The notes: generated by a model from the sequence alone, not told the origin. Positions 890-28,592 are shown, numbered from the stretch's first letter. The stretch: 40,867 bases of DNA from Rhodocyclaceae bacterium (GCA_019750575.1 JAIEOJ010000172.1:1-40867); one strand, 5' to 3'. A program made the numbers and translations.

Positions 890-897
890 GGCTGCGT

Positions 898-8151: not shown

Positions 8152-8187
8152 GTTGCGGGCCCACGGCCCCGAACAGGAAGAGTCATC

Positions 8188-10792: not shown

Positions 10793-11644
10793 ATGGAACT
10801 CGGCAAGTTACTGGCCTATTTCGACGAATGGCGCGGCCGTCAGTCCGTGCTCGACCACGCGCTGCAGTTCGACGATCACGGTGCGATCGGTTGTTACGAT
10901 GGCCTGCGCCTGCACAGCGTGTTCCAGCCCATCCTGCACGCGAACGATCTGCGCCCCTTTGCCTACGAGGCCTTGCTGCGCGTGCGCAGTCTGAGCGGTG
11001 AATTGCTCGGCCCGCAGGACGTGTTTCGCCGCACCGAGGTATCGGAGGAAATCATCTATCTCGATCGCCTTTGCCGCGTTATCCATTCGATCAATTTCTT
11101 CAGCCAGCAGCCCAGTCCCGATCTGAGCCTTTTCCTCAATGTGGACGGCCGTCATTTGCTGAATGTCGCCAACGGTGGTCATGGACGCACCTTCCAGGCC
11201 CTGCTTGATTACTGCGGCGTGCGTCCGCAACAGGTGGTGCTGGAAATCGTCGAATCGCTGGTGGCCAATTCCCGGCACTTGATCGAGGCGCTGGCCAGCT
11301 ATCAGAAGCTGGGTTACCGGATTGCCATCGATGACTTCGGCAGTCGCGAATCCAATTTTGACCGGCTCTGGAACCTATCGCCCGACATCGTCAAGCTGGA
11401 CCGCAACCTGGTTGCGCAATCGGTGGTGAATCCGCGCGCGCGGTGCGTACTGCCCAAGCTGGTGGAGATCATTCACGAGCTCGGTGCCACGGTGGTCTGC
11501 GAAGGTATCGAGGACGAGGAACAGCATGACATTGCCGTCGATACCGGCACTGACCTCCTGCAGGGTTACTACTATGCGCGCCCGGCCGGCCTGATCGAAC
11601 CCGATCTCCGCGTGCGGACGCCGCAGTTGCAGGCGGCGGCATGA
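10793..11644 (+). CDS. EAL-domain protein (putative c-di-GMP phosphodiesterase)
   Basis: YEALLRV, LNVDGRHL, LEIVESL, AIDDFGS, VKLDRNLV, VVCEGIED retained. Confidence 0.85.
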   Translation: MELGKLLAYFDEWRGRQSVLDHALQFDDHGAIGCYDGLRLHSVFQPILHANDLRPFAYEALLRVRSLSGELLGPQDVFRRTEVSEEIIYLDRLCRVIHSINFFSQQPSPDLSLFLNVDGRHLLNVANGGHGRTFQALLDYCGVRPQQVVLEIVESLVANSRHLIEALASYQKLGYRIAIDDFGSRESNFDRLWNLSPDIVKLDRNLVAQSVVNPRARCVLPKLVEIIHELGATVVCEGIEDEEQHDIAVDTGTDLLQGYYYARPAGLIEPDLRVRTPQLQAAA

Positions 11645-11645
11645 A

Positions 11646-11667
11646 AAAGCCCGCCTGAGCGGGCTTT
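11646..11667. terminator. Bidirectional intrinsic terminator between convergent EAL genes
   Basis: AAAGCCCGC-CTGA-GCGGGCTTT between convergent stop codons. Confidence 0.8.
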
Positions 11668-11681
11668 GCGGATGGGCGTAC

Positions 11682-12500
11682 TCAGTTCGGGTGCGCCGCG
11701 TCGGTGCGTGTGCGCTTGCGGGCGTGATGCGGTGCTGCCGTGCCTTCTGCCCGCTGGATCAGTTCGACGCCGGCCTCGATGGCGCGCTGGGCCTGGCGCG
11801 TGTTCTCGACATCGATGAGGCTGCGGATGCCGTAGTCGGCAAGGCGCAGGGCCAGCAGATTGAGTTGCTCGGGTTTCCTGAGCAAGCCATGGTCGAGGCG
11901 CACGACATCGGGATGCAGTCCCAGCAGCCAGTGGTTGCTGGCCCAGTCTGCGCCGTGCGAACTCAGCGCGATGCGGTAGCCGCGCTTGCGGTAGGCGTTG
12001 AGCGCATCATGCAGCGCATGATCGGCTTCGTCGACAACATGGATCTCCAGCGTGATGTTCTGCGGCTCCAGTCCGCAGGCGCGCAGCGCATTCTCGAACA
12101 CGATGCCGTGACCGCCCGGCACGATCTCGATGTGGCGCAGATTGATCTTTACATAAAGATGCTGCTGGTCCGGGTGCAGCAGGTAGTTGAGTGCGTGCAG
12201 GGTGCGCACGAGCCGGTCCAGATGCACGAACTCGGCATTACTGCCGGGGATGGCAAAGATCGCGTCCGGGTGCAGCGGCATGTCATTGAGTTCGCCGGTG
12301 GCCTTGAGCACGGCGGCATGGCCGTGCAAGGAACCGGAGCCGGCCACATGAATGGGCGCATAGCTGGAGTCCAGCCTGATGCGCGCGTAATGCGCCACGG
12401 CACCGGTGGGCGTGGCCTGGAAGGGATCGTCGAGGCGCGTGAAGGGGCGCTGGTCGCGGTCGCGGGTATTGAGATAACGGACGAGATCGGTCAATGGCAT
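11682..12500 (-). CDS. Degenerate EAL-domain protein
   Basis: EAL fold motifs recognisable (VKINLRHI, ITLEIH, YRIALSSHGAD, VVRLDHGLL) but catalytic residues lost; start MPLTDLVRYL with GGAAAGGA RBS. Confidence 0.7.
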   Translation of the reverse strand: MPLTDLVRYLNTRDRDQRPFTRLDDPFQATPTGAVAHYARIRLDSSYAPIHVAGSGSLHGHAAVLKATGELNDMPLHPDAIFAIPGSNAEFVHLDRLVRTLHALNYLLHPDQQHLYVKINLRHIEIVPGGHGIVFENALRACGLEPQNITLEIHVVDEADHALHDALNAYRKRGYRIALSSHGADWASNHWLLGLHPDVVRLDHGLLRKPEQLNLLALRLADYGIRSLIDVENTRQAQRAIEAGVELIQRAEGTAAPHHARKRTRTDAAHPN

Positions 12501-12947
12501 GTGCGCTTCCTTTCCGCCGTGCTGGGCGGAGGGCATGTTGTTCGTGTGTCTCGAAGATAGCTTCATGAGTCCTCCGAACCAACGATTATTAATGGACATG
12601 CTTATGCGCGAACCGTCATCCAAGCATATACGCTGTGCGCGGATATGGAAGTGAATTTTCCTTATGTTTCAATGCAGTGGCTTGCGCTTACATTCAGCAT
12701 GGAAAAACTGCAAGCGGCGTGCGCGGTGCCGTAAACCGGCAGTTGCGGCGTGTGGGCCGGGGCAGGCAGGCATCAATCCCGCGGCTCCCGGTTTTCTATT
12801 TGCGAAAGATGTTTTTGCCGCGCACGGCGTCGCGCAGTCAGGCAGCAGATGCTCCCGACACCTGACGGCTTTTCGGACCGCGGCGGCAAATGGGGGATAA
12901 TTGCGGCTTTGCAGGGCACGCCGGGTGCCTGCCACCGTAGAAAAATC

Positions 12948-13769
12948 ATGCGCTTTATCGAAAAACTCAAGGCTGCCTGGCAGCAGAACAACTCCCTGGT
13001 TTGTGTCGGCCTCGATCCCGATCTGGCCCGCTTCCCCACGCCCCTGGCAAAGAAGGCCTCATCCATCTTCGCCTTCAACAAGGCCATCATCGACGCCACC
13101 CATGATCTGGTCTGCGCCTACAAGCCGCAGATCGCCTACTTCGCTTCCGAGTCCGCCGAGGACCAGCTGCAGCAGACGCTGGATTACCTCAAGGCCAACT
13201 ACCCGCACATCCCGGTCATCCTCGATTCCAAGCGCGGCGATATCGGCAGCACTGCCGAACGCTATGCGGCGGAAGCCTTTGTGCGCTATGGCGCCGATGC
13301 GGTGACTATCAATCCCTACATGGGCCACGACTCGGCCGAGCCCTTCCTGCGCCATGCCGACAAGGGCGTGATCCTTCTGTGTCGCACCTCGAACAGCGGC
13401 GCCGGTGATCTGCAGGACATGGTGGTCGATGGCACGCCCCTGTTCGAGCATGTGGCGCGCATGATTGCCGAGCAGTGGAACGGCAACCGCAATTGCATGC
13501 TGGTGGTCGGCGCCACCTGGCCCGAGCAGATGCGCCGCATCCGCAGCATCGTTGGTGACATGCCCTTGCTGGTGCCGGGCGTCGGTGCCCAGGGCGGTGA
13601 TGTGGAAGCGCTGCTCAAGGCCGGTCAGACGGCCGACGGCACGGGTCTCGTCATCAGCTCGTCGCGGGCGATCCTGTACGCGAGCAGCGGTGCTGACTTC
13701 GCCGAAGCTGCGCGCGCCGAGACGCTGAAGCTGCGCGAGCAGATCAATTACTATCGCCACAAGACCTGA
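12948..13769 (+). CDS. pyrF: Orotidine 5'-phosphate decarboxylase
   Basis: [16 protein letters not shown] active-site motif, PGVGAQGGD. Confidence 0.95.
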
Positions 13770-13798
13770 GCAATGCCGACAGCCTGTCGGCATTGCTT
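13769..13798 (+). terminator. Strong hairpin after pyrF (terminator-like, weak T-run)
   Basis: AGCAATGCCGACA-GCC-TGTCGGCATTGCTT nearly perfect stem. Confidence 0.55.
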
Positions 13799-13853
13799 AC
13801 ATCGGGCTGCTGCGGTTATTATTTATTCATTGAAAATCAGTGGCTTGATGTGT

Positions 13854-13869
13854 CGGCACGGTTCGTGCT
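13854..13869 (+). promoter_or_regulatory. Candidate sigma54 promoter of the PEP-CTERM gene
   Basis: CGGCACGGTTCGTGCT: GG-N10-GC spacing, one mismatch in each of the -24 and -12 boxes; 41 nt upstream of ATG. Confidence 0.55.
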
Positions 13870-13910
13870 GTTCTTCGGATATCCCTAACTGGCATCTGCT
13901 GGAGAATCCG

Positions 13911-14534
13911 ATGAGACTGCCCCGACTTTTTGCTGCAATCAGCCTGCTGGCTGCGTTTTCACTGCCCGCCCAGGCAAGCGTTGTCTGGACCGACTGGAGC
14001 TCGGTGAGCAGCGGCGTGCTGACGCAAGGCGCGAATGTCAGCAATGTGAGCCTGAGCGGCAATGTGCACAGTTACGACGATGGCTCACCTTACTATTATC
14101 AGTACCCGGCCAGCTTCGGCAATCTCGCACCGTCTGATCTGATCCGAGTGGCGGGCGTAGGCGCCTTCACCCTGAACTTCGATGCGCCGGTCACTGACCT
14201 CTATCTCGCTCTTGTCAGCGTCGGCCAGCCCGGTCTGCCCGTGACCTATTCGTTTGACAGCAGCTTCTCCGTATTTTCCAGCGGGCCGGGTGCCTGGGGC
14301 AATGGCACCTACAGCATCTCCGATAATGACTTCACCGGCCGCGAGTTCAATGGCGTGCTGTTTTTCTCCGGTACCTTTTCCAGCCTCAGCTTCAACATCA
14401 GCCCTGCCGAATACTGGCACGGTTTCAATATCGGCGTGGCCGAAGTGGCCCAGGTGCCGGAGCCCGGCAGCCTCGCCCTGGTCGCGCTGAGCCTCGGTCT
14501 GCTCGGCGCCGCTGCGCGTCGTCGCATGCGCTGA
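13911..14534 (+). CDS. PEP-CTERM sorting-signal exported protein
   Basis: Signal peptide; C-terminal VPEPGSLALVALSLGLLGAAARRRMR. Confidence 0.88.
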   Translation: MRLPRLFAAISLLAAFSLPAQASVVWTDWSSVSSGVLTQGANVSNVSLSGNVHSYDDGSPYYYQYPASFGNLAPSDLIRVAGVGAFTLNFDAPVTDLYLALVSVGQPGLPVTYSFDSSFSVFSSGPGAWGNGTYSISDNDFTGREFNGVLFFSGTFSSLSFNISPAEYWHGFNIGVAEVAQVPEPGSLALVALSLGLLGAAARRRMR

Positions 14535-14551: not shown

Positions 14552-14577
14552 AGGCCGGCTTGGTGCCGGCCTTTTTT
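14552..14577 (+). terminator. Intrinsic terminator after the PEP-CTERM gene
   Basis: AGGCCGGC-TTGGT-GCCGGCCTTTTTT. Confidence 0.8.
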
Positions 14578-15547
14578 ATTGCCTGCCGATCTGGGCGAGC
14601 GCAATGCGCACCGATTTGCGCACGTCCGGATCGGCGTCATCAATGGCGCCCTCCAGCAGTGGCAGTGCCGCCGTGTCGCCGATCTCGCCCAGTGCCAGCG
14701 CCACTTCCTTGCGCAGATTGCTGATCGGATGGTGGAAGAGCCCGCTTAGTTCAGCGAGCACCTTGCGCGCGCGCAAGCGCCCCAGGGCGCGTACCGATTG
14801 CAGCTTGACCTGCCAGTACTCGTCGCCCAGCGACTGCGTGAGCGCTGCTTCCGCTTCTGGCAGCTTGAGCTTGCCCAGGGTAATGGCGGCTTCTTCGCGC
14901 ACCTGCCATTCTTGATCGTTGAGTGCCGCATAGAGCGAGGGCAGCACCTTGGCATCGGCTGCCAGACCGAGTGCGCCGGTAGCGGCGCGACGCACTTCGA
15001 CGACCGGATCGCCGGTCGCCAGGCGGGCGAGGTCGGTCAGCGCATCACTTTGCTTGAGCCAGCCGATCACGGTGACCGCTTCGCGGCGCACATGGGCGTC
15101 GGCATCGTCGAGCGCCTTGACCGCCGTCGCATAGGCCTGCGGATAGCGCAGCTCACGCAGGCCGCGCAGGACGGCGGCGCGCACGAAGGCGGACGGGTGA
15201 GGGGCGCGTTCGACCAGCAGCGGGGCGAGTGAAACGTCCTTGAGTTCAGACAGACTTTGCGCGGCTGCCTCGGCAACTTGCGTGGCCGCGTCGGTGAGAC
15301 CGTCGAGCAGGGCGGTCACGACCTCGGGGGTTTCCCAGGCAGCCAGCACGCGCGCGGCTTCCAGGCGCACGCTTGCATCCGGATCGCGCAGGAGGCTGTC
15401 GATCAGGAAGGGCAGGGCGGCCTCATCTTCCAGATCGGCCAGGTCGAGTACGGCGATGCGCCGCACGGCGGCGTCGCTTTCCTGCAGACGCAGCAGGAAG
15501 GGCGTGAGCTCGGGGATTTCGAAAATATCGGGGATGGCTGGACTCAT
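14576..15547 (-). CDS. HEAT-repeat (PBS-lyase-like) protein
   Basis: Tandem ~31-aa helical repeats such as DPDASVRLEAARVLAAWETPE and DDADAHVRREAVTVIGWLKQSD; last gene of the minus-strand operon. Confidence 0.85.
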   Translation of the reverse strand: MSPAIPDIFEIPELTPFLLRLQESDAAVRRIAVLDLADLEDEAALPFLIDSLLRDPDASVRLEAARVLAAWETPEVVTALLDGLTDAATQVAEAAAQSLSELKDVSLAPLLVERAPHPSAFVRAAVLRGLRELRYPQAYATAVKALDDADAHVRREAVTVIGWLKQSDALTDLARLATGDPVVEVRRAATGALGLAADAKVLPSLYAALNDQEWQVREEAAITLGKLKLPEAEAALTQSLGDEYWQVKLQSVRALGRLRARKVLAELSGLFHHPISNLRKEVALALGEIGDTAALPLLEGAIDDADPDVRKSVRIALAQIGRQ

Positions 15548-15551
15548 ATTC

Positions 15552-16442
15552 TTATTGGCTCAGGTGGATCTGGGTTTCGGTGATCAGACTGGGGCCCAGC
15601 GGCGACAGGCGCTCCAGTGGATCGGGTTGCTTGAACTGGGCATGCTCGCCGTGCAGCAGATGCAGGCATTGGCGCTTGATGGCAACGAATTCGGGTGCGG
15701 TCAGCAGTTCGCGATGGCGCGGCCGCGGAAAGTCGATGGGGATGTCGGCCAGCAGGCGACCTGGACGATGAGTCATGACGATGACGCGGTCGGCAAGGAA
15801 CAGCGCCTCGTCGATGTCGTGGGTGACGAAGACCACGGTGGTGCGGATCTTCTCCCATACGTCGAGCAGCAGCTCCTGCATCATGTTGCGGGTCAGCGCA
15901 TCGAGCGCGCCGAAGGGCTCATCCATCAGCAGCACGCGCGGATGGTTGATCAGCACGCGCGCGATCTCCACGCGCTGCTGCATGCCACCGGAGAGCTGCG
16001 CCGGGTAGCGGTTTTCAAAACCTCCGAGGCCGACCAGCTTGACCAGTTCCAGTGCGCGCCTGCGCCGCTCGGCCTTGCCCACGCCCTTCATCTTGAGGCC
16101 GAAGGCGACGTTGTCGATGATCTTCTTCCACGGAAACAGCGTGTGATGCTGGAACACCAGCCCGCGATCCGGGTGCGGTCCCTTGATCGGCTCGCCGTCC
16201 AGCGTCACGCTGCCCTGGGTGGCGCGGATGTGGCCGGCGATGGCACCGAGCAGGGTCGATTTGCCGCAACCCGAAGGACCGAGCAGGCAGACGAACTGGC
16301 CGGACGGGATATCGAGATTCAGTTTCTGCACCGCCTCGAAGCGGTCCGCGCCCTGGCCGAGTGCAATGCTGACTGCATCGACCGCGATGGCGCCGACGCC
16401 GGCTTCCCGGGCCAGCGCGGATGATTGATTCACTGCATTCAT
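15552..16442 (-). CDS. ABC transporter ATP-binding protein (nitrate/sulfonate/taurine type), importer 2
   Basis: [46 protein letters not shown]. Confidence 0.9.
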   Translation of the reverse strand: MNAVNQSSALAREAGVGAIAVDAVSIALGQGADRFEAVQKLNLDIPSGQFVCLLGPSGCGKSTLLGAIAGHIRATQGSVTLDGEPIKGPHPDRGLVFQHHTLFPWKKIIDNVAFGLKMKGVGKAERRRRALELVKLVGLGGFENRYPAQLSGGMQQRVEIARVLINHPRVLLMDEPFGALDALTRNMMQELLLDVWEKIRTTVVFVTHDIDEALFLADRVIVMTHRPGRLLADIPIDFPRPRHRELLTAPEFVAIKRQCLHLLHGEHAQFKQPDPLERLSPLGPSLITETQIHLSQ

Positions 16443-16451
16443 CTCATCTCC

Positions 16452-17336
16452 TCAATGCTGCTTTTCCTGGGCGGCGAGCCAGGGCGTGAGCGCCTTACCG
16501 ACGTGCTTGATGGCGACGCTGGAAAGCATGCCGAAGGCGCCGATAAAGCCCATGCCGACGAGGATGTCCGCATAGTTCTGCAGGCTGTACGATTCCCAGG
16601 TGAAGTAGCCGATGCCGAATTCGCCCGAAATCATCTCGGCGGTGACGAGGCAGAACCAGGCCGTGCCCATGCCGATGGCCAGCCCCGTGGTGATGCTGGG
16701 CGTGGCGCTGGGCAGGATGACTTCAATAAAGATCGAGACCGGCTTGGCGCCGAGGCTGCGCGCAGTAGCGATAAGGCGCGGATCGACGCTTTCGACACCA
16801 TGAATGGTGTTGAGCAGCACCGGGAACAGCGCACCCATGAACGTGATGAAGATCATGGACAGCTCGGAAGACGGGAACGCCAGGATGGCGACCGGTATCC
16901 AGGCCACGCCGGGAATCGGACGCAGCACTTCCAGCGGCGGCATCAGGATGTCGGCGACCCAGCGCGAGCGGCCGACGATCAGGCCGAGGGCGATGCCCAG
17001 TGCGGCGGCACCGACAAAACCCGAGAAGACACGCAGCAGGCTGTTGCTGATGTGAGCGACCAGCTTGGGCGATTCGAGCAGGCCGAAAAATGCCGGCACC
17101 ACATCGCTGGGCGCCGGGATGTTCTCGAATGTGATCAGGCCGAGGCTGATGTGGCGCGACGACAGCCATTGCCACAGCACGATGAAGGCGGCCACTGACA
17201 GCAGTTGCAGGGCAAGGTGCGCGCCCTTGCGCGGCGTGAAGCGGCGTGGCGACTGCGGTTCCGGCGCCGCTGCGTGGTGCGGCGAGCTCGCCCCGGTATC
17301 GATTTCGCTCCGGCTGACGATAACTTGATTGCTCAT
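16452..17336 (-). CDS. ABC transporter permease (sulfonate/taurine type), importer 2
   Basis: SsuC/TauC-like ARSLGAKPVSIFIEVILPSATPSITTGLAIGMGTAW; start MSNQVIVSRSEIDTG. Confidence 0.88.
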   Translation of the reverse strand: MSNQVIVSRSEIDTGASSPHHAAAPEPQSPRRFTPRKGAHLALQLLSVAAFIVLWQWLSSRHISLGLITFENIPAPSDVVPAFFGLLESPKLVAHISNSLLRVFSGFVGAAALGIALGLIVGRSRWVADILMPPLEVLRPIPGVAWIPVAILAFPSSELSMIFITFMGALFPVLLNTIHGVESVDPRLIATARSLGAKPVSIFIEVILPSATPSITTGLAIGMGTAWFCLVTAEMISGEFGIGYFTWESYSLQNYADILVGMGFIGAFGMLSSVAIKHVGKALTPWLAAQEKQH

Positions 17337-17386
17337 GAAGACTCCTTGGCGCTGGCCCGCAGGGGCGGGCCAGCTTGAGCGTTGTT

Positions 17387-18841
17387 TCAGTGGGCGGCCG
17401 CGACCTTGGCGGCCGGCTTGCCCGGGCTTGCGCCGGTCAGCGCCGCATACTCGACGACATTGCCGCCCTTGGCCCTGGCCCACGCATCGGCGGAGCGCTT
17501 GTCGAGGAAGGCAGCGATCTGGCCCCGCCCGGACTTCACATAGAAAGCCTGGTGGGCGAAGAGCTTGAGCCCCGTGTTGCGGTCATGCACATAGCCGACG
17601 CGGATCTTCCTGCCTGCCTTCTCCAGCGCGGCCTGGTCGGCAAAAGCCGATTCGGGCGTGGCATAGGCGCGCACCTTGGCTTCGCCGGAAACCCAGAGCT
17701 GAGCGGCGAGCTTGGGTTCCGCGATGGCGGTGCCGGTGCGGGCGTCCTTGCCGGTCAGCGGCGACTTTGCGTAATCCTTGAGCGCCTTGTCGTAGTCGAG
17801 GCCCGATTGCTTGAAGGCTTCGCGAATGTAGCGATCGTCGATGAAGGTGTCCGGGTCGAGGAAGGTGTCGTTGCGCTTCAGCAGAACCAGGGTTTTGATC
17901 GCGGTGGCAAGCGCCTGGCGATACTCCGGCTTCCAGGTCAGGTCGCGCGTCTGCAGGCCGAGCGGGCCGTGGAACAGATAGTTCACCTCGGCGTCGATGC
18001 CGGCCACCTTGGCGATCAGCTCGCTGTACTTTTCCGGATCTTCATTGAAGAGACGGTTGGCTTCGATCGTTGCGCGCAGGTAGGCGACGATGATTTCCGG
18101 ATACTTCTGCGCGTACTCGACGTTGGCCAGGGTGCCGTGATAGGTCGGCGCATTGGCCTGGGCACCGTCGTAGATCTTGCGCGCGAAGCCGCGATACGGG
18201 AACAATTCGGCGAAGGGTACGAAGTCGGCATGGGCATCGATCTTGCCGGCCTTGAGCGCGGAGCCGGCGACCTCGGGCGACTGCGTGGTCAGCTTGAGAT
18301 CCTTGTCCGGGTCGATATTGTGATCCTTGAGCACGCGCAGCAGCATGCCGTGGGCGGTCGAGGCGAAGGGCACGGACACGTTCTTGCCGCGCAGGTCTTC
18401 GATGCTCTGGATCTTGGAGTCGTTCGGCACCACGATGCCGTTGCCGCTGCCTTGCGTGCTGCCTGACAGCACGGTGATGAAGGCCGTCTTCTTGCCTGCC
18501 TTCAGGTGGGCCACGCCATTGTTGGCGCCGGGGAAATCGGCCATGCTGCCGATGTCCAGCTTTCCGGCGACCATCTCGTTGGTCAGCGGCGCGCCGGAAG
18601 TGAAGTCCTTCCAGACAATGTCGTAGCTCACGTCCTTGTACTTGCCGTCGCGCGGCAGGTACTTGTCGAGCAGCTTCAGCTCGCGCACGAGGATGCCCCC
18701 GGCGGCGCAATTGATGGTGGTGTCCTGGGTGCCGATGGCGACGCGTATGGTTTCTGCCCAGGCGGTGTTGCCGGTCAGCGTGGCGAAGGCGAGCAGCAGG
18801 CCGCCAGCCAATAATGAGAATCCGCGTTTCTGGTGTTTCAT
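17387..18841 (-). CDS. ABC transporter substrate-binding protein (nitrate/sulfonate type) with a NosL-like C-terminal extension
   Basis: Signal peptide plus TauA/SsuA-like body; C-terminal ~110 aa includes VGYVHDRNTGLKLFAHQAFYVKSG...AAFLDKRSADAWARAKGGNVVEYAAL, resembling NosL. Confidence 0.78.
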   Translation of the reverse strand: MKHQKRGFSLLAGGLLLAFATLTGNTAWAETIRVAIGTQDTTINCAAGGILVRELKLLDKYLPRDGKYKDVSYDIVWKDFTSGAPLTNEMVAGKLDIGSMADFPGANNGVAHLKAGKKTAFITVLSGSTQGSGNGIVVPNDSKIQSIEDLRGKNVSVPFASTAHGMLLRVLKDHNIDPDKDLKLTTQSPEVAGSALKAGKIDAHADFVPFAELFPYRGFARKIYDGAQANAPTYHGTLANVEYAQKYPEIIVAYLRATIEANRLFNEDPEKYSELIAKVAGIDAEVNYLFHGPLGLQTRDLTWKPEYRQALATAIKTLVLLKRNDTFLDPDTFIDDRYIREAFKQSGLDYDKALKDYAKSPLTGKDARTGTAIAEPKLAAQLWVSGEAKVRAYATPESAFADQAALEKAGRKIRVGYVHDRNTGLKLFAHQAFYVKSGRGQIAAFLDKRSADAWARAKGGNVVEYAALTGASPGKPAAKVAAAH

Positions 18842-18866
18842 GTTCGCTCCTTGGTGATTGTTTGAG

Positions 18867-19112
18867 TCAGCGCAGCAGATAGGGGATGTCGACCTTGACT
18901 GCCCCGGTCGGGCAGTCGTGGGCGCAGGGCAGGCAGTACCAGCACTCGTCGAACTGCATGTAGGCCTTGCCCGTGGTCTTGTCGATGGCGAGCAGGTCGA
19001 GCGGGCAGACATCGACGCAGACCGTGCAGCCCTTGTCGCCGATGCATTTGTCGTGATCGATGGTCACGGGGGCGCTGCTGCGCAGCGCGATTTCATGGGG
19101 GACGAAGGACAT
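18867..19112 (-). CDS. 4Fe-4S ferredoxin, AprB-like
   Basis: Two cluster motifs CIGDKGCTVCVDVCP and CWYCLPCAHDCP. Confidence 0.82.
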   Translation of the reverse strand: MSFVPHEIALRSSAPVTIDHDKCIGDKGCTVCVDVCPLDLLAIDKTTGKAYMQFDECWYCLPCAHDCPTGAVKVDIPYLLR

Positions 19113-19115
19113 GGC

Positions 19116-20048
19116 TTAACCCTTGTATGGCTCGACTCGGGCCTTGATCAGGCCGGTGTCGTAGGCGGCGTCAAACCAGTCCTTGAGCCATTGCTGATGG
19201 GTCGCGCCGAACTCGATCCGGGCATCCCCGGCTTTCTTCACACCCTTGAACAGGGGGTTCTCGGCGGTGATTTCGCGCACGATGCGCGGGTCGAGGCGCA
19301 GGCGTTCGCCAAACCAGGCGGCGGCTTGCTCGTCGTTGTTGGCAATGTAGGCGACGGCATCGCGCAGCGTGCCTTCCAGCCTGGCACGAGCGCCCGGATG
19401 CTTGGCCAGATAGTCATTGCGGGCGACGACCAGGAAGTGGTGCGGCCAGGTCTGCAGATTGCGCGCGCCCTGCTCGACCAGCTTCAGCACCTGCGGCTGG
19501 CGGATCACGGCGGCGTCGGCCAGGTTCTGGCTCAGCACCAGCTGCAGGTCGTTCGGCTGCAGATTGATCAGGGTGTAATCGGTGGCCGGATTGAGGCCCA
19601 GCTTCCTGATCGAGCGCAGCAGGTCGAGATGCGAGTCGCTGCCGAAGGACAGTGCGATGCGCTTGCCCTTGAGGTCGGCGAGTGAGGCGGCCGGGCTGTC
19701 CTTGTTCACCAGCAGCGAATAACTGGAGTGGCCGAGATTGGCGATCACCGTCACCGTGCCCGGCTGCTTGAGCAGATAGGTGGTCAGCGGCTGGTAGCTC
19801 GACACCACCACATCGACATTGCCCGAGGCCAGCGCCTCGAACATGGGCGGGCCGTTCTGGAAGAAGGTGTACTCGGCGGCGAGGCCGTTCTTCTTGGCGA
19901 GGCCGGCCTTGTCGGCGACGACGGGAATCTGGCCGTTGAGTGCGGCGGGATAGGCGAAGCGCACCGGCACTTCCTGCGCGGAGACGCTGGAGACAAGGCC
20001 GGTTAAGGCGAGTAGTGCGGCGACAAGCTTGGCGGATGTGAGTTTCAT
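19116..20048 (-). CDS. ABC transporter substrate-binding protein (sulfonate/taurine type), importer 1
   Basis: Signal peptide MKLTSAKLVAALLALTGLVSSVSA; SsuA-like periplasmic binding domain. Confidence 0.87.
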   Translation of the reverse strand: MKLTSAKLVAALLALTGLVSSVSAQEVPVRFAYPAALNGQIPVVADKAGLAKKNGLAAEYTFFQNGPPMFEALASGNVDVVVSSYQPLTTYLLKQPGTVTVIANLGHSSYSLLVNKDSPAASLADLKGKRIALSFGSDSHLDLLRSIRKLGLNPATDYTLINLQPNDLQLVLSQNLADAAVIRQPQVLKLVEQGARNLQTWPHHFLVVARNDYLAKHPGARARLEGTLRDAVAYIANNDEQAAAWFGERLRLDPRIVREITAENPLFKGVKKAGDARIEFGATHQQWLKDWFDAAYDTGLIKARVEPYKG

Positions 20049-20057
20049 GGTTTTTCC

Positions 20058-20825
20058 TTAGCGTTGGGGTTTCTGCCAGGGCAGGACGAAGCGTTCGGCA
20101 TAGCTGAGCGAGGCGGTCATGAGTGCGCCCAGCACGCCGATGGTGAACATGCCGACCAGCACATGGCTGGTTTCCAGATTGATGCGGCTGGCCTGGATCA
20201 GATAGCCGAGGCCCGATTGCGCGGCGATCAGTTCGGCCGTGACCACGGCCATCCAAGACTGGCCGAGGCCGATGCGCAGGCCGGTCCAGATCGAGGGCAG
20301 GGCCGAGGGCAGATAGACCGAGCGCAGCAGGCGCCAGCGTCCGGCGCCGAGAAAGCGCGCTGCATGGACATGGCGTTGTTCGACCGCAATACCGCCGGCG
20401 AAGGCATTGAGGAAGATCGGAAAGAAGGCGGCCAGCGCGGTGATGAAATAGCTGGGCTTGTCGCCGATGCCGAACCACAGGATCGCAAGCGGAATCCAGG
20501 CAATCGGCGGAATCGGGCGCAGCAACGAGACGATGGGCAGCAGCAGGCGGCGCAGCGGCAGCAGGAAGGCCATCAGCAGCGCTAGCGGTACCGCCAGCGC
20601 CGCGGCGATGAAGAAGCCGACGAAGACGCGCTTTAGACTGGCGCCAATGTCGCCGACCAGGGTGCCGGCGGCGAACAGCTCGGCAATGCTGTGCGCGACC
20701 GCGAACGGCGACGGTAGCAGCACCGCATTGCCCATCCAGGCCGCGGCCAGCCACCAGACCGACAGCAGCAGCGTCAGGCTGACGGCGACCCAGCCGGTGG
20801 CAAGGACGAGACGGCGCAGCTTCAT
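20058..20825 (-). CDS. ABC transporter permease (sulfonate/taurine type), importer 1
   Basis: SsuC-like permease loop AARFLGAGRWRLLRSVYLPSALPSIWTGLRIGLGQSWMAVV. Confidence 0.88.
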   Translation of the reverse strand: MKLRRLVLATGWVAVSLTLLLSVWWLAAAWMGNAVLLPSPFAVAHSIAELFAAGTLVGDIGASLKRVFVGFFIAAALAVPLALLMAFLLPLRRLLLPIVSLLRPIPPIAWIPLAILWFGIGDKPSYFITALAAFFPIFLNAFAGGIAVEQRHVHAARFLGAGRWRLLRSVYLPSALPSIWTGLRIGLGQSWMAVVTAELIAAQSGLGYLIQASRINLETSHVLVGMFTIGVLGALMTASLSYAERFVLPWQKPQR

Positions 20826-21706
20826 TGGTTGAACACCTTGAGGCTTTCCTCGCGGATCAGGCCGAGGAGTTGCTGACGCAGGCCGATGAAGGCCTGGTCC
20901 TGCAGGCGCCGGCCAGGTACATCGAGCTGGGCATTGACGTCGATCACGGCCTTGAGCGTGCCCGGATTGACGCTCATCACCACGATGCGGTCGGCCAGCA
21001 GCAGGGCCTCGTCAATATCATGCGTGACGAAGATCACCGTCGGTTGCAGCCCGACGCGCAGGCGCAGCACTTCCTCCTGCATGATGCTGCGCGTTTGTGC
21101 ATCGAGTGCGCCGAAAGGCTCGTCCATAAGCAGCACGCCGGGCTGGGTGGCCAGCGCACGCGCAATCGCCACGCGCTGCTGCATGCCGCCGGACAGCGTG
21201 GCCGGCCACGCGTCGGCAAAATCATCGAGCCCGACCAGCTTGAGGAAGCGCCGTGCAATCTCTTCGGGCGCCACGAAGCCGAGTGCACGCGGCCCGAAGG
21301 CCACGTTGTCCAACACTGTCATCCAGGCAAACAGCGAATGCTGCTGGAACACCACATTGCACGCCGGCGTCGGCTCGCGCACGAGCTGGCCGTCGATGCT
21401 GGCCGAACCCGACGACGGTTGCAGCATGCCGCCGATCACATTCAGCAAGGTGGTCTTGCCGCAGCCCGAGGGGCCGACCAGGGCGACGAACTCGCCCGGC
21501 GCCACGTCGAGACTGACGTCGCGCACGGCATATTCATGCCGGCCGCGGGCAAAGGTCACGCTGACCTTGCGCAGGCTGATGGCGCCGCGTGGGCCCTTGC
21601 CGACGGCCTGCAGGCCGGCCTCGTCGCGCGCCTGCTGGGGCAAGCCGACCGGCTGCAGCGATGCCGGCGGGGCGATGGCGGAAGTGCTGTGGCCGAGGAT
21701 GAGCAT
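20822..21706 (-). CDS. ABC transporter ATP-binding protein (sulfonate/taurine type), importer 1
   Basis: [31 protein letters not shown]; overlaps neighbouring genes. Confidence 0.9.
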   Translation of the reverse strand: MLILGHSTSAIAPPASLQPVGLPQQARDEAGLQAVGKGPRGAISLRKVSVTFARGRHEYAVRDVSLDVAPGEFVALVGPSGCGKTTLLNVIGGMLQPSSGSASIDGQLVREPTPACNVVFQQHSLFAWMTVLDNVAFGPRALGFVAPEEIARRFLKLVGLDDFADAWPATLSGGMQQRVAIARALATQPGVLLMDEPFGALDAQTRSIMQEEVLRLRVGLQPTVIFVTHDIDEALLLADRIVVMSVNPGTLKAVIDVNAQLDVPGRRLQDQAFIGLRQQLLGLIREESLKVFNQ

Positions 21707-22860
21707 CAGAGCACCACGCGATCCGAGACGTAGCGACGCTTGATGCCCAGGTATTCCTTCCAGCGGCGCGGCGCGCGCTGGCCGGTCACCAGTTCCTCGT
21801 CGGCATGGCCGAGCGGGAAGTGGCGCGGCGCCGTGTCCTTACTCCAGAGCCCGGCGCGACGACGCTCCTCGCGCTGATCTACGAGCCAGTCGTTGTAGCT
21901 CTCGTAGACGATGTGGCCGTCCTCGGCATCGATGGTGGCGGCGCGGGTGCGGCCGTCGAGTTCGCGGTAGCGCTCGACTTCGGCATCCGACAGGGCCAGA
22001 GGTTCGACATCATTCTTGTAGCCGGCGTTTTCCAGCTCGCGCCCGGCGACCCAGGCGAAAATGCGCTGGTCGCGCAGGCTCAGCAGGTTCTTGTAGATGC
22101 CGATGTACTGCGTCGAGGCCGGTCCGCCCAGGGGCGCATGGTCGCGCTGCTGGCCGCGCTTCTGCGCGATTTCGCCCTCATGGAACTTGAGCATGCCGGG
22201 GTCGTATTCCTCGCCGAGGAAATCGGTGACGCCGCGCAACACGCCTTCCGGGTCATGCACCAGGGCTTCATAGGAAACGTCGAGCCACTGATCCTTGGGC
22301 AGCTTCTCGCGCCATTCCTCGACGGCATTCTGCGAACGCTTCCAGACATAGGCGGCCGCATGGATATTGGTCGGGCCGAACGAGGATTCCAGATAGTCGG
22401 CGCTGGCGTCGCGGCCGTCGCGGGTGATGAAGATGAATTGGGCGTTGGGGAAGTCCTCAAGGATTTCCTTGACGAAGAACAGGTTGTAGGGCGTCTTCTC
22501 GCCCCAGCGCGGCTTGCCCACATGTTCGGCGTACTTGCCCAGCAGTGCGGCGAACAGCCCTTCGAAGGTTTGAGTTTCGGCGCGGGCGATGATTTCATCG
22601 ACGATGGTCGCCGGATTGACGGGCAAGCCCCAGAACGGCGTCTTCAGGCCGAACACCATTTCGCTGGCCAGGGTGCGGAAGTTCTTCGCATCGCCGAGGT
22701 CGCCGTAGGTATGCAGATAGGGGCGGAAGCGCGGGTAGTACCAGACCACCTCGGGCACGGCCAGGCGCTTGTGGAAGCCGAGCATGGCCATCAGCAGCGT
22801 GGTGCCGGAGCGCTCGGCGCCGAGCACGAAGATGGGGCATTCTTTCAGATTCAGACTCAT
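21706..22860 (-). CDS. Sulfotransferase-family protein (PAPS-type)
   Basis: 5'-phosphosulfate loop-like LGAERSGTTLLMAML and 3'-phosphate motif-like FITRDGRDASADYLESS. Confidence 0.85.
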   Translation of the reverse strand: MSLNLKECPIFVLGAERSGTTLLMAMLGFHKRLAVPEVVWYYPRFRPYLHTYGDLGDAKNFRTLASEMVFGLKTPFWGLPVNPATIVDEIIARAETQTFEGLFAALLGKYAEHVGKPRWGEKTPYNLFFVKEILEDFPNAQFIFITRDGRDASADYLESSFGPTNIHAAAYVWKRSQNAVEEWREKLPKDQWLDVSYEALVHDPEGVLRGVTDFLGEEYDPGMLKFHEGEIAQKRGQQRDHAPLGGPASTQYIGIYKNLLSLRDQRIFAWVAGRELENAGYKNDVEPLALSDAEVERYRELDGRTRAATIDAEDGHIVYESYNDWLVDQREERRRAGLWSKDTAPRHFPLGHADEELVTGQRAPRRWKEYLGIKRRYVSDRVVL

Positions 22861-22875
22861 GGGTTCTCCTTGTGG

Positions 22876-24642
22876 TCAGGCTGCGGCCGCGTGGTCGCGG
22901 GCAGCGGTGGTGTCGTTGTTCTTGTGGATGCGCAGGCGGTTGTAGGCCTGGCCTTCCTCGGTATCGATGGCGATCGAGTAGGGTTCGATCTCCTGCTTGC
23001 GGTGTGCAATCACGCCCTTGTCGTTCTTGTAGAGCTCGGTATGCACAAACCATTCGGCGTCGTTGCGCTGCGGGTGATCGACGCGGTAGTGATACAGACC
23101 CCAGCGGCTTTCGGTGCGGTAAAGCGAGGCGCGCGCGGCCATTTCGGCGCAGTCGTGGATGAAGCCGACTTCGGCGGCGCGCATCAGCTCGTGCGGATTG
23201 CGCGCATGCAGCTGCTCGATGTCCTCGGCAATTTCGGCGAAGCGGTTGAGCGCGATCTCGTAGCGCTTGGTGACCTTGGGCGGTTGCAGGTAGTCGTTCA
23301 CAAAGCGGCGCAGCTTGTACTCGACCTGGGCCGGCGGCAGGCCGCTGTCGCGCAATAGCGGCGCGAAGATGCGCGCCCGTTCCTGCTCCACCTGCGCCGC
23401 ATCGGCGGCCGGCAGTTCGCGCGCGCTGGCGTAGGCGGCGGCATTGCTGCCGGCGAACCAGCCGTAAGTGAAGGCGCCCAGCATGTAGTTGTGCGGCACC
23501 GCCGCCAGGTCGCCGGCGGCGTAGAGGCCGGGCACGCTGGTTTCGGCCTTGCTGTTCACATACACGCCGGAGGCGCTGTGACCGGAACAGAAGCCGATTT
23601 CGGAGATGTGCATCTCGATCATCTGCTCGCGGTAGTCGGTGCCGCGTCGCGCATGGAACTGGCCGCGGCTTGGCCGCTCGTTGCTGTGCAGGATGGTCTC
23701 GATGTTCTGGATGGTTTCTTCGGCGAGGTGATTCAGCTTTAGGAAGACCGGCCCGTTGCCGCTCTGCAGCTCCTGGTAGAACTCCCACATCATCTGCCCG
23801 CTCCAGTAGTCGCACTCGATGAAGCGCTCGCCCTTGTTGTTGGCGGTAAAGCCGCCGAGCGGGCCGGTGACGTAGGCGCAGGCCGGACCGTTATAGTCCT
23901 TGATCAGCGGATTGATCTGGTAGCACTCGAGATTGCGCAGTGCGGCGCCGGCGTGATACGCCATCGAGTAGCCGTCGCCGGCATTGGTCGGGTTTTCGTA
24001 GGTGCCCATCAGATAGCCCGAGGCGGGCAGGCCGAGGCGGCCGGCGGCACCGGTGGACAGGATCACCGCCTTGGCACGGATCACATAGAAGTCGGCGGTG
24101 CGGCAGTCGAAGCCGAGCACGCCGGCGATGGCGCCGTTCTCGTCAGTCAGCAGGCGCGTGGCGACGACGCGGTTGGTGATGGCGACGCGGGCGCGCTTGA
24201 GCTGGCGGTAGAGCACCTTCTTGACGTTGTGGCCTTCAGGCATGGGCAGCACATAGGTGCCCATGTGATGGACCTTCTTCATGGCGTAGTCGCCGGTCAG
24301 GTCCTTTTCGAACTTGACGCCCCAGCGATCGAGTTCCTCGATGGTGCTGTAGCTGTGTTGGGCATAGGCGTACACCGTCGACTGATCGACGATGCCGTCA
24401 TTGGCGATGGTGATTTCCTTGGTGTACTGCTCGGGCGTGGCGAAGCCCGGCACGACGGCGTTGTTGAGACCATCCATGCCCATGGAAATGGCGCCGCTGC
24501 GCTTGACGTTGGCCTTCTCCAGCAACAGCACTTTCAATTGCGGGTTTGCTTCTTTTGCCTTGACGGCGGCCATCGGCCCGGCGGTGCCGCCGCCGACGAC
24601 CACGATGTCGTATTCGAGGGTATGGGTTTGTGGCGTAGTCAT
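22876..24642 (-). CDS. FAD-dependent oxidoreductase, adenylylsulfate reductase alpha (AprA)-like / fumarate reductase superfamily
   Basis: GGGTAGPMAAVKA FAD motif, EKANVKRSGAISMGMDGLNN, SGHSASGVYVN, PGLYAAGDLA, C-terminal ESRWGLYHYRVDHPQRNDAEW typical of the AprA branch. Confidence 0.85.
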   Translation of the reverse strand: MTTPQTHTLEYDIVVVGGGTAGPMAAVKAKEANPQLKVLLLEKANVKRSGAISMGMDGLNNAVVPGFATPEQYTKEITIANDGIVDQSTVYAYAQHSYSTIEELDRWGVKFEKDLTGDYAMKKVHHMGTYVLPMPEGHNVKKVLYRQLKRARVAITNRVVATRLLTDENGAIAGVLGFDCRTADFYVIRAKAVILSTGAAGRLGLPASGYLMGTYENPTNAGDGYSMAYHAGAALRNLECYQINPLIKDYNGPACAYVTGPLGGFTANNKGERFIECDYWSGQMMWEFYQELQSGNGPVFLKLNHLAEETIQNIETILHSNERPSRGQFHARRGTDYREQMIEMHISEIGFCSGHSASGVYVNSKAETSVPGLYAAGDLAAVPHNYMLGAFTYGWFAGSNAAAYASARELPAADAAQVEQERARIFAPLLRDSGLPPAQVEYKLRRFVNDYLQPPKVTKRYEIALNRFAEIAEDIEQLHARNPHELMRAAEVGFIHDCAEMAARASLYRTESRWGLYHYRVDHPQRNDAEWFVHTELYKNDKGVIAHRKQEIEPYSIAIDTEEGQAYNRLRIHKNNDTTAARDHAAAA

Positions 24643-24651
24643 GCGGCTCCT

Positions 24652-25419
24652 TTATCCTTGGTGCTGGCGGTCGATACGGAAGCGGTACTGGAAGGCATCG
24701 CCGCGGTAATAGAGATGTTCGTAGTCGAGAGGACGGCCATTGCGGTCGTGGGTCAGGCGTTCGATGCGCAGCACCGGCGCGCCGTCTTCGATGCGCAGTG
24801 CTTCGACCAGTTCGTCATCGGCGAGGATGGATTCGATGCTCAGATCGGCGTGGCCGAGGGCGATGCCGCAGTCGTTCTCGATGATCAGGAAGATGTCGCG
24901 GGTGACCAGGTCAGCGCTTTCCAGCGCGCGGCCGATGTCTTCCGTCACCCAGGTGATTTCCAGCGACAGCGGCTGGCGGTTGAGGTAACGCACGCGGTGG
25001 ATCTCGGCCACCGTGTCGCCGACATTCACGCCGAGCTTTCTTGCCACCTTGTCTTCCGCAGGAATGAAACGCAGGCGGCGCAGATCGTTGACGATCTCGT
25101 AACCCATGGCGCTCATGGCTTCGGCAAAGCCCTGCAGGTGGGTGACGTTCTGGAAGGCTTTGGGCTTGGCGACGAAACTGCCCTTGCCGTGAATGCGGAA
25201 GATCAGGCCTTCCTTCTGCAGGTCGCCGAGTGCCTGGCGTACGGTGATGCGGCTGACGCCGAAGATGGCGCCGAGTTCGGCCTCCGATGGCATGCGGCTG
25301 TCCGGCGCATAGCTGCCGTCGAGAATGCGCGCGCGCAGCTGTTCGCGGATCTGGCGATGCAAGGGCGCTTCGTCGGTTGGCAGCAGCGCCGACAGGGCGG
25401 GGAATTCAGTCAGAGGCAT
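24652..25419 (-). CDS. GntR-family (HutC/UTRA) transcriptional regulator
   Basis: N-terminal wHTH RMPSEAELGAIFGVSRITVRQALGDLQKEGLIFRIHGKGSFV plus UTRA domain. Confidence 0.9.
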   Translation of the reverse strand: MPLTEFPALSALLPTDEAPLHRQIREQLRARILDGSYAPDSRMPSEAELGAIFGVSRITVRQALGDLQKEGLIFRIHGKGSFVAKPKAFQNVTHLQGFAEAMSAMGYEIVNDLRRLRFIPAEDKVARKLGVNVGDTVAEIHRVRYLNRQPLSLEITWVTEDIGRALESADLVTRDIFLIIENDCGIALGHADLSIESILADDELVEALRIEDGAPVLRIERLTHDRNGRPLDYEHLYYRGDAFQYRFRIDRQHQG

Positions 25420-25431
25420 GTCTTGTTCAAC

Positions 25432-25443
25432 TTGTTATGACAA
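25432..25443. promoter_or_regulatory. Candidate GntR operator
   Basis: TTGTTATGACAA dyad, flanked on the minus strand by ACAAGTTG direct repeats, starting 13 nt upstream of the gntR start codon. Confidence 0.5.
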
Positions 25444-25637
25444 CTTGTGAAGCAAGACTAGAGAAGCCTTCCCGGGCTGTGAACGATTTCTATCTGCTAA
25501 GGATTTTCAGGCGCCATGCATTTGCAAAGTGTGTTTCTGCATAAGCCAGGTTCTGTCATATCGACATAGAAAATTCATCGTTCTTTTTGCCTTTCTTCGC
25601 GCGTAGATTTTCATCATCAACACGCGGAGAAATTTTC

Positions 25638-26267
25638 ATGAACCCGTCCAGCTCGCATCTCGACATTCCATCGCTCATCATCCCCGGCCTGCATGGCAGC
25701 GGGGCTGCGCATTGGCAAAGCTGGTGGCAAGCGTCGGTACCGAACGCGCAGCGCGTGGAACAGGATGAGTGGAGTACGCCGGATATCGACGCCTGGAGCG
25801 ATTGCCTGCTCCAGGTCCTGGCGCAGCAAAGCCAACCGGTATGGCTGGTGGCGCACAGTTTCGGCTGCCTGGCCGCCGTGCATGCGATCGCGAAAATCGG
25901 TGCGGGAAACAAAATCAATGTTGCCGGCGCATTCCTGGTCGCTGCAGCGGACCCGGATCGGTTTGGCCTCGGCGAGAGACTCTTCCTGCGCAAGCTGCCA
26001 GTGCCGACAGCCCTGGTGGTGAGCTGCAATGATCCGTGGTTGCCAGAGAACAAGGCCTTGTGGCTGGGCGAACGCTGGGGCGCAGAAATATTTCCCATCG
26101 GCCCTGCCGGACATGTGAATACTGCCGCCGGCTTTGGACCATGGATAGAGGGGCTGGTGCTGTTCCGCGATTTTGTGCGCAGCAAGGGCGGCGCGGTTGT
26201 GCAAGAACGTCGCAGCGCACAACCGCCCTTGTTGCGCCAGGCCTGGCCTGTGATCGAATTCGCGTGA
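25638..26267 (+). CDS. RBBP9/YdeN-family serine hydrolase
   Basis: PSLIIPGLHGSGAAHWQSWW and nucleophile elbow VAHSFGCLA. Confidence 0.85.
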   Translation: MNPSSSHLDIPSLIIPGLHGSGAAHWQSWWQASVPNAQRVEQDEWSTPDIDAWSDCLLQVLAQQSQPVWLVAHSFGCLAAVHAIAKIGAGNKINVAGAFLVAAADPDRFGLGERLFLRKLPVPTALVVSCNDPWLPENKALWLGERWGAEIFPIGPAGHVNTAAGFGPWIEGLVLFRDFVRSKGGAVVQERRSAQPPLLRQAWPVIEFA

Positions 26268-26270: not shown

Positions 26271-27434
26271 TCAACTGCGGCGTAGATACGCCTGCAGTTT
26301 GAAGCCCAGCGACAGTGCAATGAACACGCTGAGGGCAAATACCCAGCCGGACACTGCGCCGGCGCTTATGCCCGAGAGCAGCGTACCGATGGTGCAACCC
26401 AGGCCGATCATGCTGCCCCAGCCGAGTAATACCCCGCCGAAGAGACCACATGCGACATCGCGCAAGGTCGGCAGGCGCGGCGTAAACTGACCGGCCGCCA
26501 GGGCGGACGCAAAGCTGCCGGCGATCAGCGCCAGCACCAACGCACCGTTCGGCGTTAACAGCGCATCCTGAATGAGCGTCGCGCAGCCGCCCAGCGTATC
26601 GAGGCCGTCGAGCCGCGACGGCACCCAACCTTGTGCTTCACCGGCGCGGCGCGCGAGGCTGCCCAACGCCGAGGTCACGCCCAGCGGCTTGGTGCGTATG
26701 ATGATGAGCACGGCAAACAGGCCAACCGCAATGCCGCCGATCCAATAGGACCAGCGCCCCTCGAACAACCGGGCAATACCTTCGCGCAGCGTGGCGACCG
26801 GTGGTCGTAGCGCTTGTGGCGGCAGCGGCTTGCGCCACAGTAGCGCAGCCAGCACTGCCAATACGCCGAGCTGCAGCAGCAGCGCGCCGGCATAGCCGAG
26901 CTTCTGCGGTAGCCACAGGATGGGCGCTTCCGCAATCGTTGCGCTGTAAAAATGATTCCAGGTATTGAAGCCGAGCCCGAAACCGACGATTGCGCCGATC
27001 AATGCGAAGGGCGACACTGGCGCGCCCTCACCCAAGCGATACAGATGCGCGCTGATGCAGGAGCCGGAGATGACCATGCCGGCGCCGAAAGCAATACCGG
27101 CCAGTGCCAGTGCCCAACTCACCGGGCCGATATGCAGATCGGGTGGCAAACGCTCGGGCACAGGCAGCCAACTGCCGACCACCACCTGATAACCGATGCT
27201 GCCGACGGCCAGCGCCAGCAGGATGGCGAGCAGGCCGCGCGCATCGCCCTTGTCATGCCAGTCACGCGCGTGGCACAGGAAGCAGAAGCGTGTGCGCTGC
27301 AATACCACGCCGAGTGCGAGACCGAGCAAGGCCGAGAAGCTCAGCACGCGTCCGCCGGGAAAGCCAGAAAGTGAGAGCGCCCAGGCGATTCCGCCGGCGA
27401 GGATGAGAAGGGCGAGCCAGAATGTCTTGCGCAT
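26271..27434 (-). CDS. tsuA: YeeE/YedE-family transporter (thiosulfate importer TsuA-like)
   Basis: Multi-TM with conserved Cys motifs RFCFLCHARD, GSCISAHLYR, GLGCTIGTLLSG. Confidence 0.82.
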   Translation of the reverse strand: MRKTFWLALLILAGGIAWALSLSGFPGGRVLSFSALLGLALGVVLQRTRFCFLCHARDWHDKGDARGLLAILLALAVGSIGYQVVVGSWLPVPERLPPDLHIGPVSWALALAGIAFGAGMVISGSCISAHLYRLGEGAPVSPFALIGAIVGFGLGFNTWNHFYSATIAEAPILWLPQKLGYAGALLLQLGVLAVLAALLWRKPLPPQALRPPVATLREGIARLFEGRWSYWIGGIAVGLFAVLIIIRTKPLGVTSALGSLARRAGEAQGWVPSRLDGLDTLGGCATLIQDALLTPNGALVLALIAGSFASALAAGQFTPRLPTLRDVACGLFGGVLLGWGSMIGLGCTIGTLLSGISAGAVSGWVFALSVFIALSLGFKLQAYLRRS

Positions 27435-27444
27435 ATCGAATCCG

Positions 27445-27480
27445 AAAAAAAGGGAGACGGCCTGATGGGGCACGTCTCCC
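27445..27480 (-). terminator. Intrinsic terminator/attenuator upstream of tsuA
   Basis: Minus strand GGGAGACG-N13-CGTCTCCC followed by TTTTTTT, ending 10 nt before the tsuA ATG. Confidence 0.7.
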
Positions 27481-27653
27481 TGAACCTCTGGAGGAGAGGC
27501 CATGACACTAGAGGAGCTTGCAAGGCTGGCGTGGCAGACGCCAGGGAAAACCATGCAGCTGCCGCCAAATCCCGTTTGATGAAATGACCGTTCCGGATCA
27601 AATCGCAAAGCGATTTGGCGGGTTTCGAGCAAACGCGTTCGCGTTTGCGGTGC

Positions 27654-28592
27654 TTACTTCGCCGCCCAGATCGTGCCGGCCGGATTGCTGATCGGCGCAC
27701 CGACGGAGTTGCCGTATTCGATCCACGAACCGTCGTAGTTCCTGACCTTGTAGCCGAGGATCTTGGTCAGTGCGAACCAGGTGTGACTGGAACGCTCGCC
27801 GATGCGGCAGTAGGTGATGATGGGTTTGTCGCCATTCACGCCGACGCTCGAGTAGAGCTGCTTCAGATCGGCGGCCGACTTGAAGGTGCCGTCTTCATTC
27901 ACGGCCTTGCTCCAGGTCACATTCACTGCACCAGGAATGTGGCCGGCGCGTACCGCCAGTTCAGGCACGCCGGCCGGGGCGAAGATCTTGCCCTGGTATT
28001 CATCGGCAGAGCGGATGTCGATCAGCTGGGTGCCGGCCTTGTCCTTGCTGTTTGCCACCTGCAGTACATCCCCGAGGCGGGCGCGCAGCGCTTCGTTGGC
28101 CTTGTCGACCTTGAACTTGCTGGCAACGATTTCCGGCACGCGGTTGTCCTGCTGACGGTTCTCGGCTTCCCACTTCTTGCGGCCGCCGTCGAGCAGCTTC
28201 ACGTCCTTGACGCCGTAGATGTCGAAGACCCATGCGGCCCAGGCGGCAAACCAGTTGTTGTTGTCGCCGTAGAGGATCACAGTGGTGTCCTTGGTCACGC
28301 CGGCCTTGGACAGCAGGATTTCGAACTGCTCCTTGCTGACGATGTCGCGCTTGACCGTGTCGTTCAGGTCGGCGTGCCAGGAGAAATTGACTGCGCCCGG
28401 AATGTGGCTGCGTTCATACAGGCCCGGATTGACGCTGACCTCGATGATGCGGACGTTCTTGTTGTCCAGGTTCTGCGCCAGCCATTCGGTGCTGACCAGT
28501 GGACCCTTGGGAATTTCGGTGGCAGCGTTGGCGGCGCCGGCAAAGGCGGAAAAGCTGATGGCAGTTGCGCCCAGCAAATGACGGATATTCAT
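27654..28592 (-). CDS. Periplasmic thiosulfate sulfurtransferase (two-domain rhodanese)
   Basis: Signal peptide, two rhodanese domains, active-site loop CRIGERSS. Confidence 0.92.
   Translation of the reverse strand: MNIRHLLGATAISFSAFAGAANAATEIPKGPLVSTEWLAQNLDNKNVRIIEVSVNPGLYERSHIPGAVNFSWHADLNDTVKRDIVSKEQFEILLSKAGVTKDTTVILYGDNNNWFAAWAAWVFDIYGVKDVKLLDGGRKKWEAENRQQDNRVPEIVASKFKVDKANEALRARLGDVLQVANSKDKAGTQLIDIRSADEYQGKIFAPAGVPELAVRAGHIPGAVNVTWSKAVNEDGTFKSAADLKQLYSSVGVNGDKPIITYCRIGERSSHTWFALTKILGYKVRNYDGSWIEYGNSVGAPISNPAGTIWAAK

Follow-up and report, generated by a model that had tools for sequence, protein, structure and literature searches.

The DNA analysed here (the window) is a stretch of 40,867 nucleotides (nt) from a Rhodocyclaceae bacterium (GCA_019750575.1, JAIEOJ010000172.1:1-40867), whose draft genome comprises 2.64 Mb at 95% completeness. 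On its minus strand lies a run of 11 genes, and open reading frame and profile analysis of the window confirmed all of them in the order in which the initial annotation had described them: a gntR regulator, an AprA-like flavoprotein, a sulfotransferase, an ATP-binding cassette (ABC) importer with its ATPase, permease and substrate-binding protein (SBP1), an AprB-like ferredoxin, a second importer (SBP2, permease 2 and ATPase 2) and a HEAT-repeat protein. A single transcript is plausible for the run, as the intergenic spacing only ranges from a 4-nt overlap (-4) to +25 nt. The initial annotation took the 11 genes for one candidate system of organosulfur assimilation; on comparison with other genomes they fall into a conserved seven-gene core and a four-gene insertion and do not form one conserved unit.

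The core opens with gntR (24652-25419), which encodes a GntR/UTRA regulator (PF07702, 125 bits; PF00392, 77 bits), followed by its enzyme, the AprA-like flavoprotein binding flavin adenine dinucleotide (FAD) at 22876-24642. On the far side of the insertion come the dicluster [4Fe-4S] ferredoxin of 81 amino acids (18867-19112; PF12838), SBP2 (17387-18841), permease 2 (PF00528; from 16452 to at most 17483, its uncertain start probably lying inside this interval near the SBP2 stop), ATPase 2 (15552-16442; PF00005, TauB-like with 263 bits) and the HEAT-repeat protein (14576-15547; PF13646). We compared 99 loci, comprising 80 close flavoprotein homologues from named genomes, 15 from genomes of the same family and four from plasmids. 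Flavoprotein and ferredoxin occur together at every one of these loci and the HEAT gene at 96, the three lacking it being contigs that end nearby, while the complete seven-gene set is present at 72. In the family sample the flavoprotein is carried by 17 of 151 genomes. The set is also kept at more distant annotated loci in Methylobacterium, Acidithiobacillus, Acinetobacter, Methylocystis, Sinorhizobium, Leptolyngbya, Pseudanabaena and Nostoc, and the module is found in Pseudomonas, Paraburkholderia, rhizobia, cyanobacteria and actinobacteria, with flanking genes that differ by genus. As the core recurs across phyla, the gene set is not a chance association, and it appears to be a widespread yet uncharacterised one among bacteria. 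One copy resides on plasmid pTcM1 of Acidithiobacillus caldus, with genes for FdxA and for an FAD-dependent oxidoreductase of very large size (10574-14035) directly downstream.

The inserted DNA (19113-22917) holds the genes, all on the minus strand, for the sulfotransferase (21706-22860; PF13469, 126 bits), ATPase 1 (20822-21706; PF00005, NtrCD/TauB-like), permease 1 (20058-20825; PF00528, TauC/SsuC-like) and SBP1 of the SsuA family (19116-20048; TIGR01728, 110 bits against a cut-off of 163.5), together with the last codons of the flavoprotein. By blastn, the window is colinear with a genome of the same genus, G097, from 26182 to 22918 and again from 19112 to 14585, at 83-84% nucleotide identity; the segment in between has no counterpart there, the alignment stopping within the last flavoprotein codons. 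None of the four genes is present at any of the 99 core loci. One other genome of the family sample, G078, has a full-length orthologue of the sulfotransferase (56%), which sits away from any such core; none was found in the order sample (399 genomes) or the phylum sample (399 genomes). The sulfotransferase and the SBP1 importer are hence a private, lineage-specific insertion between flavoprotein and ferredoxin and, being absent from all other loci, do not belong to the core chemistry; the co-conservation that the initial annotation asked to have checked was borne out for flavoprotein, ferredoxin and HEAT protein, and we rejected the sulfotransferase as a core partner. Nor was there support for the cassette being mobile or of foreign origin, as its GC content is not distinct and its ends share only a 7-nt chance match; plasmid relatives of SBP1 are less than 30% identical. 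APS kinase is the usual source of 3'-phosphoadenosine 5'-phosphosulfate (PAPS), the sulfotransferase donor, formed from adenosine 5'-phosphosulfate (APS). A strong match to this kinase occurs in about half of the family's genomes, and none was found in the window genome (G000), G097, G040 or G078; the two genomes that have the sulfotransferase at full length, both drafts, are thus without a convincing APS kinase.

The best profile for the window flavoprotein is the generic PRK08275 (NF006131), with 1098 bits. Its AprA resemblance, proposed in the initial annotation, holds as homology, at scores below the respective cut-offs (aprA equivalog, 179 against 641.75 bits; NF005331, 293 against 557 bits). 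Its closest solved relative is the alpha subunit of a PAPS reductase from Methanothermococcus thermolithotrophicus (8a8o, 202 bits), followed among PDB matches by Archaeoglobus fulgidus AprA (159 bits) and SdhA (86 bits). A maximum likelihood tree of 22 sequences unites the window family in a single monophyletic clade that is sister to the AprA-like PAPS reductases and not inside them, and FrdA, SdhA, NadB and a probable AsfA (discussed below) are split from this side with a bootstrap value of 100, in agreement with the initial placement of the protein near AprA. In the scan of the flavoprotein the AprA C-terminal domain, PF12139, gave no match, and Succ_DH_flav_C is found in its place.

The active site of the family differs from those of its relatives. 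In all 92 family sequences, A. fulgidus AprA Arg265 is replaced by Leu, Trp234 by Tyr, Gln145 by His and Tyr95 by Glu, while Asn74 is retained, as is the His of the GGH/SGH motif; Arg265 and Trp234 are APS-binding residues. Gln145 is an APS-binding residue as well, and Lys120/Arg121/Ser122 of the M. thermolithotrophicus enzyme are PAPS-specific, contacting the 3'-phosphate (PMC10322725). These last three are replaced in the window family by Val, His and His or Arg, respectively, and Arg237 by Leu. Since the APS- and PAPS-binding residues are replaced across the family, a sulfonucleotide substrate, and with it APS or PAPS redox chemistry, appears unlikely and was rejected on these residues, leaving flavin chemistry on a sulfur-oxygen group as a possible function. 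This bears directly on the mechanism put forward initially, sulfuryl transfer followed by AprAB-like redox chemistry. In such a scheme the sulfotransferase would run in reverse, transferring sulfuryl from a sulfate ester to 3'-phosphoadenosine 5'-phosphate (PAP), and the AprAB-like pair would then reduce PAPS (or APS) to sulfite. We regard this as very unlikely in view of the replaced residues, the absence of the sulfotransferase from all other loci and the separation of the G078 copy from any core, even though the closest characterised relative of the flavoprotein is a PAPS reductase and, without a convincing APS kinase in G000 or G078, no normal source of PAPS for sulfation in the forward direction was found in the two genomes that carry the enzyme.

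For the ferredoxin, the AprB resemblance is likewise one of homology: it scores 43.5 bits with the aprB profile, below the curated cut-off, matches positions 2-64 of 132 and lacks the C-terminal tail of AprB. The HEAT protein can be tied to the flavoprotein by gene fusion. In the actinobacterium Tsukamurella, flavoprotein and HEAT repeats make up a single protein of 893 amino acids (PRK13800, 1568 bits), and the HEAT gene of the window matches the same fused portion of PRK13800 (positions 614-896). Genes for FdxA at 10 loci and for a ferredoxin-NADP reductase at three point to electron supply, and those for Mrp/NBP35 at three loci and DUF971 at 76 of 105 suggest Fe-S maturation or assembly. 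At most of these 76 loci the DUF971 gene comes after the HEAT or ABC genes; it was not found at the window locus.

By profile and predicted fold, the core importer appears to be of the sulfonate/taurine type. SBP2 matches the SsuA-family profile at a score below its cut-off (TIGR01728, 121 bits against 163.5), and the top seven PDB matches of its predicted fold (predicted local distance difference test, pLDDT, 78) are TauA and SsuA. The NosL-like tail ascribed to it in the initial annotation gives a weak match in the window copy (E 0.022); 11 of 16 orthologues carry it, with a best E of 4e-4. In cyanobacteria, Rhodocyclaceae and Aquabacterium, the core lies next to genes for sulfite/sulfate exporters (TauE/SafE at six loci, YeiH at eight), and its neighbours also include YeeE, metX, O-acetylhomoserine sulfhydrylase and luciferase-like monooxygenase (LLM) oxidoreductases. 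The window genome has CysI, CysD, CysN and an APS-type CysH; a search of this draft found no TauD and no SsuD-like enzyme, its single LLM protein being of the MsnO8/YhbW type. An importer for some other anion or small organic acid, with a flavoprotein that reduces it in a fumarate-reductase-like or other manner and sulfur genes nearby by coincidence, would be in keeping with the many ligands of NMT1 binding proteins, with the name fumarate reductase that the NCBI annotation gives to the flavoprotein and with the variation by genus of neighbours beyond the core. Nevertheless, sulfonate-type binders top both profile and fold matches, genes of sulfur transport and metabolism recur in several phyla, and the flavoprotein clusters with sulfonucleotide reductases and not with fumarate reductases, which makes a non-sulfur system an unlikely explanation.

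The core is putatively under the control of its own GntR protein. A palindrome with the consensus CTTGTYATRACAAG lies at the gntR start: 76 of 93 loci have it there with 12 or more of its 14 positions matching, a level reached by about 2.9% of stretches drawn at random from these loci. In the window, the corresponding sequence, CTTGTTATGACAAC (25431-25444), matches 13 of 14 positions and is located 12-25 nt upstream of the gntR start, where it may serve as the operator. Beside gntR a divergent serine hydrolase gene (25587-26267, plus strand) is also conserved in about ten loci.

Taken together, we propose, at roughly even chances, that the locus is a GntR-controlled organosulfur-scavenging operon, in which import of the sulfonate type is coupled to a ferredoxin-driven, flavin-dependent release of sulfite. 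SBP2, permease 2 and ATPase 2 would take up an organosulfur anion in oxidised form, a sulfonate being the likeliest case; the flavoprotein would receive electrons from the dicluster ferredoxin, and its reduced FAD would cleave the substrate to yield sulfite; the HEAT protein may be dedicated to the flavoprotein as a scaffold or a partner in assembly; and the released sulfite would be assimilated by CysI. The inserted cassette, with its second SsuABC-type importer and sulfotransferase, probably widens the substrate range. This proposal is supported by the conserved core, the importer type, the exporter neighbours, the electron-supply and Fe-S genes, the fusion, the operator and the presence of CysI and CysH. 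Of the initial interpretation, an organosulfur-acquisition operon, the placement of the flavoprotein near AprA and a co-conserved neighbourhood are likewise supported, and neither TauD nor an SsuD-like enzyme was found in the genome.

Several points weigh against this reading. Ligands of NMT1-type binding proteins also include nitrate, bicarbonate and thiamine precursors, among others, TauE and YeiH neighbours are limited to a minority of the loci and belong to common gene types, and LLM monooxygenases near the core in about 10 loci leave room for an oxygenase partner. It should also be added that the AlphaFold model of the flavoprotein is poor (pLDDT 58), so that the pocket is not readable from it, that we infer substrate, electron direction and product from gene context and sequence, and that our literature search found no open-access paper describing the cluster, although a description outside open access is possible. 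A more specific and rather speculative version, in which we place little confidence, would make the flavoprotein-ferredoxin-HEAT core an oxygen-independent, ferredoxin-driven desulfonase: reduced FAD would attack the sulfonate sulfur as AprA does on APS, sulfite would be freed from the C-S bond, and the inserted sulfotransferase might supply sulfuryl groups in reverse in cells without APS kinase.

The operon is embedded among sulfur genes, as the initial annotation had observed. A TauE/SafE sulfite exporter gene (98-997, minus strand; PF01925, 147 bits) at the window edge adjoins a sigma-54 activator (1296-3536, plus strand), and a second sulfur locus nearby (4993-10220, plus strand) consists of all the CysP/T/W/A genes of a sulfate importer and, after them, a LysR regulator. 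Upstream of gntR lie a YeeE/TsuA-type transporter and a two-domain rhodanese (26271-28592, minus strand), which score below the cut-offs for thiosulfate transporters and 3-mercaptopyruvate sulfurtransferases. Between pyrF and the HEAT gene, a gene for a protein with a PEP-CTERM motif (13773-14534, plus strand) looks like a second lineage-specific insertion, because HEAT and pyrF are almost adjacent in G097.

The bulk of soil sulfur is organic and, to our knowledge, the aerobic routes known for obtaining sulfur from sulfonates depend on oxygenases. A conserved and apparently undescribed flavoprotein/ferredoxin/HEAT module would therefore be a missing piece of sulfur cycling, its enzyme concealed in public records by a fumarate reductase label. 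If the desulfonase version is true, the family would represent a third clade of the sulfonucleotide-reductase family, acting on organic substrates.

Among known systems, Asf comes closest in layout. The megaplasmid of Cupriavidus metallidurans bears a flavoprotein-ferredoxin pair, its flavoprotein 25% identical to that of the window, beside a divergent ssuABC-like importer; we presume this pair to be Rmet_4334/5 (AsfA/AsfB), the sequence record having no annotation. A scan of the megaplasmid from 690 to 883 kb gave no match. We rejected the identification of the window flavoprotein as AsfA, given the lack of an orthologue on this megaplasmid, the low identity and the split in the tree. The asfRABC cluster, which serves arylsulfonate use, comprises a reductase, a ferredoxin, a binding protein, an ABC transporter and a regulator, and in arylsulfonate-using pseudomonads such as Pseudomonas putida S-313 AsfA and AsfB are proposed to be electron helpers to a C-S-splitting oxygenase (PMC4267179; the system is also described in PMC2864759). 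The window module shares with it the FAD flavoprotein and dicluster ferredoxin, the SsuA-type binding protein and ABC importer, a regulator of its own and a sulfur context. That the flavoprotein and ferredoxin only feed a separate oxygenase of this kind would thus fit the common architecture, the importer beside the C. metallidurans pair and the LLM monooxygenases adjacent in some loci; we find it rather improbable, however, as no oxygenase is conserved within the cluster and the window genome offers neither TauD nor, in its sole LLM protein, an SsuD. Moreover, in the tree the probable AsfA is on the side of FrdA/NadB and the window family on that of the PAPS reductases, no HEAT gene was seen near the former, and asfR encodes a LysR-type regulator whereas that of the window is a GntR protein. 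Judged on sequence, the two modules resemble each other in layout and appear not to be of the same family.

Closer in descent are the AprA-like PAPS reductases of the M. thermolithotrophicus and Ilyobacter type, the sister clade, which also combine an FAD alpha subunit with a small dicluster ferredoxin. Their Asn57 and His346 are kept in the window family, but Arg237 and Lys120/Arg121/Ser122 are not, and the cysC/cysD/cysN genes that adjoin the Ilyobacter gene are not next to the window core. Dissimilatory AprBA has homologous flavoprotein and ferredoxin domains, whereas the window proteins score below the aprA and aprB cut-offs and lack the AprA C-terminal domain, the AprB tail and Arg265. 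The window importers are of the same type as SsuABC and TauABC, although the operon contains no SsuD or TauD and the genome search revealed none. Finally, the window flavoprotein passes the PRK08275 model and the HEAT-fused actinobacterial form passes PRK13800, and the NCBIfam titles of fumarate reductase/succinate dehydrogenase flavoprotein are catalogue names only, as the tree separates the family from FrdA and SdhA.

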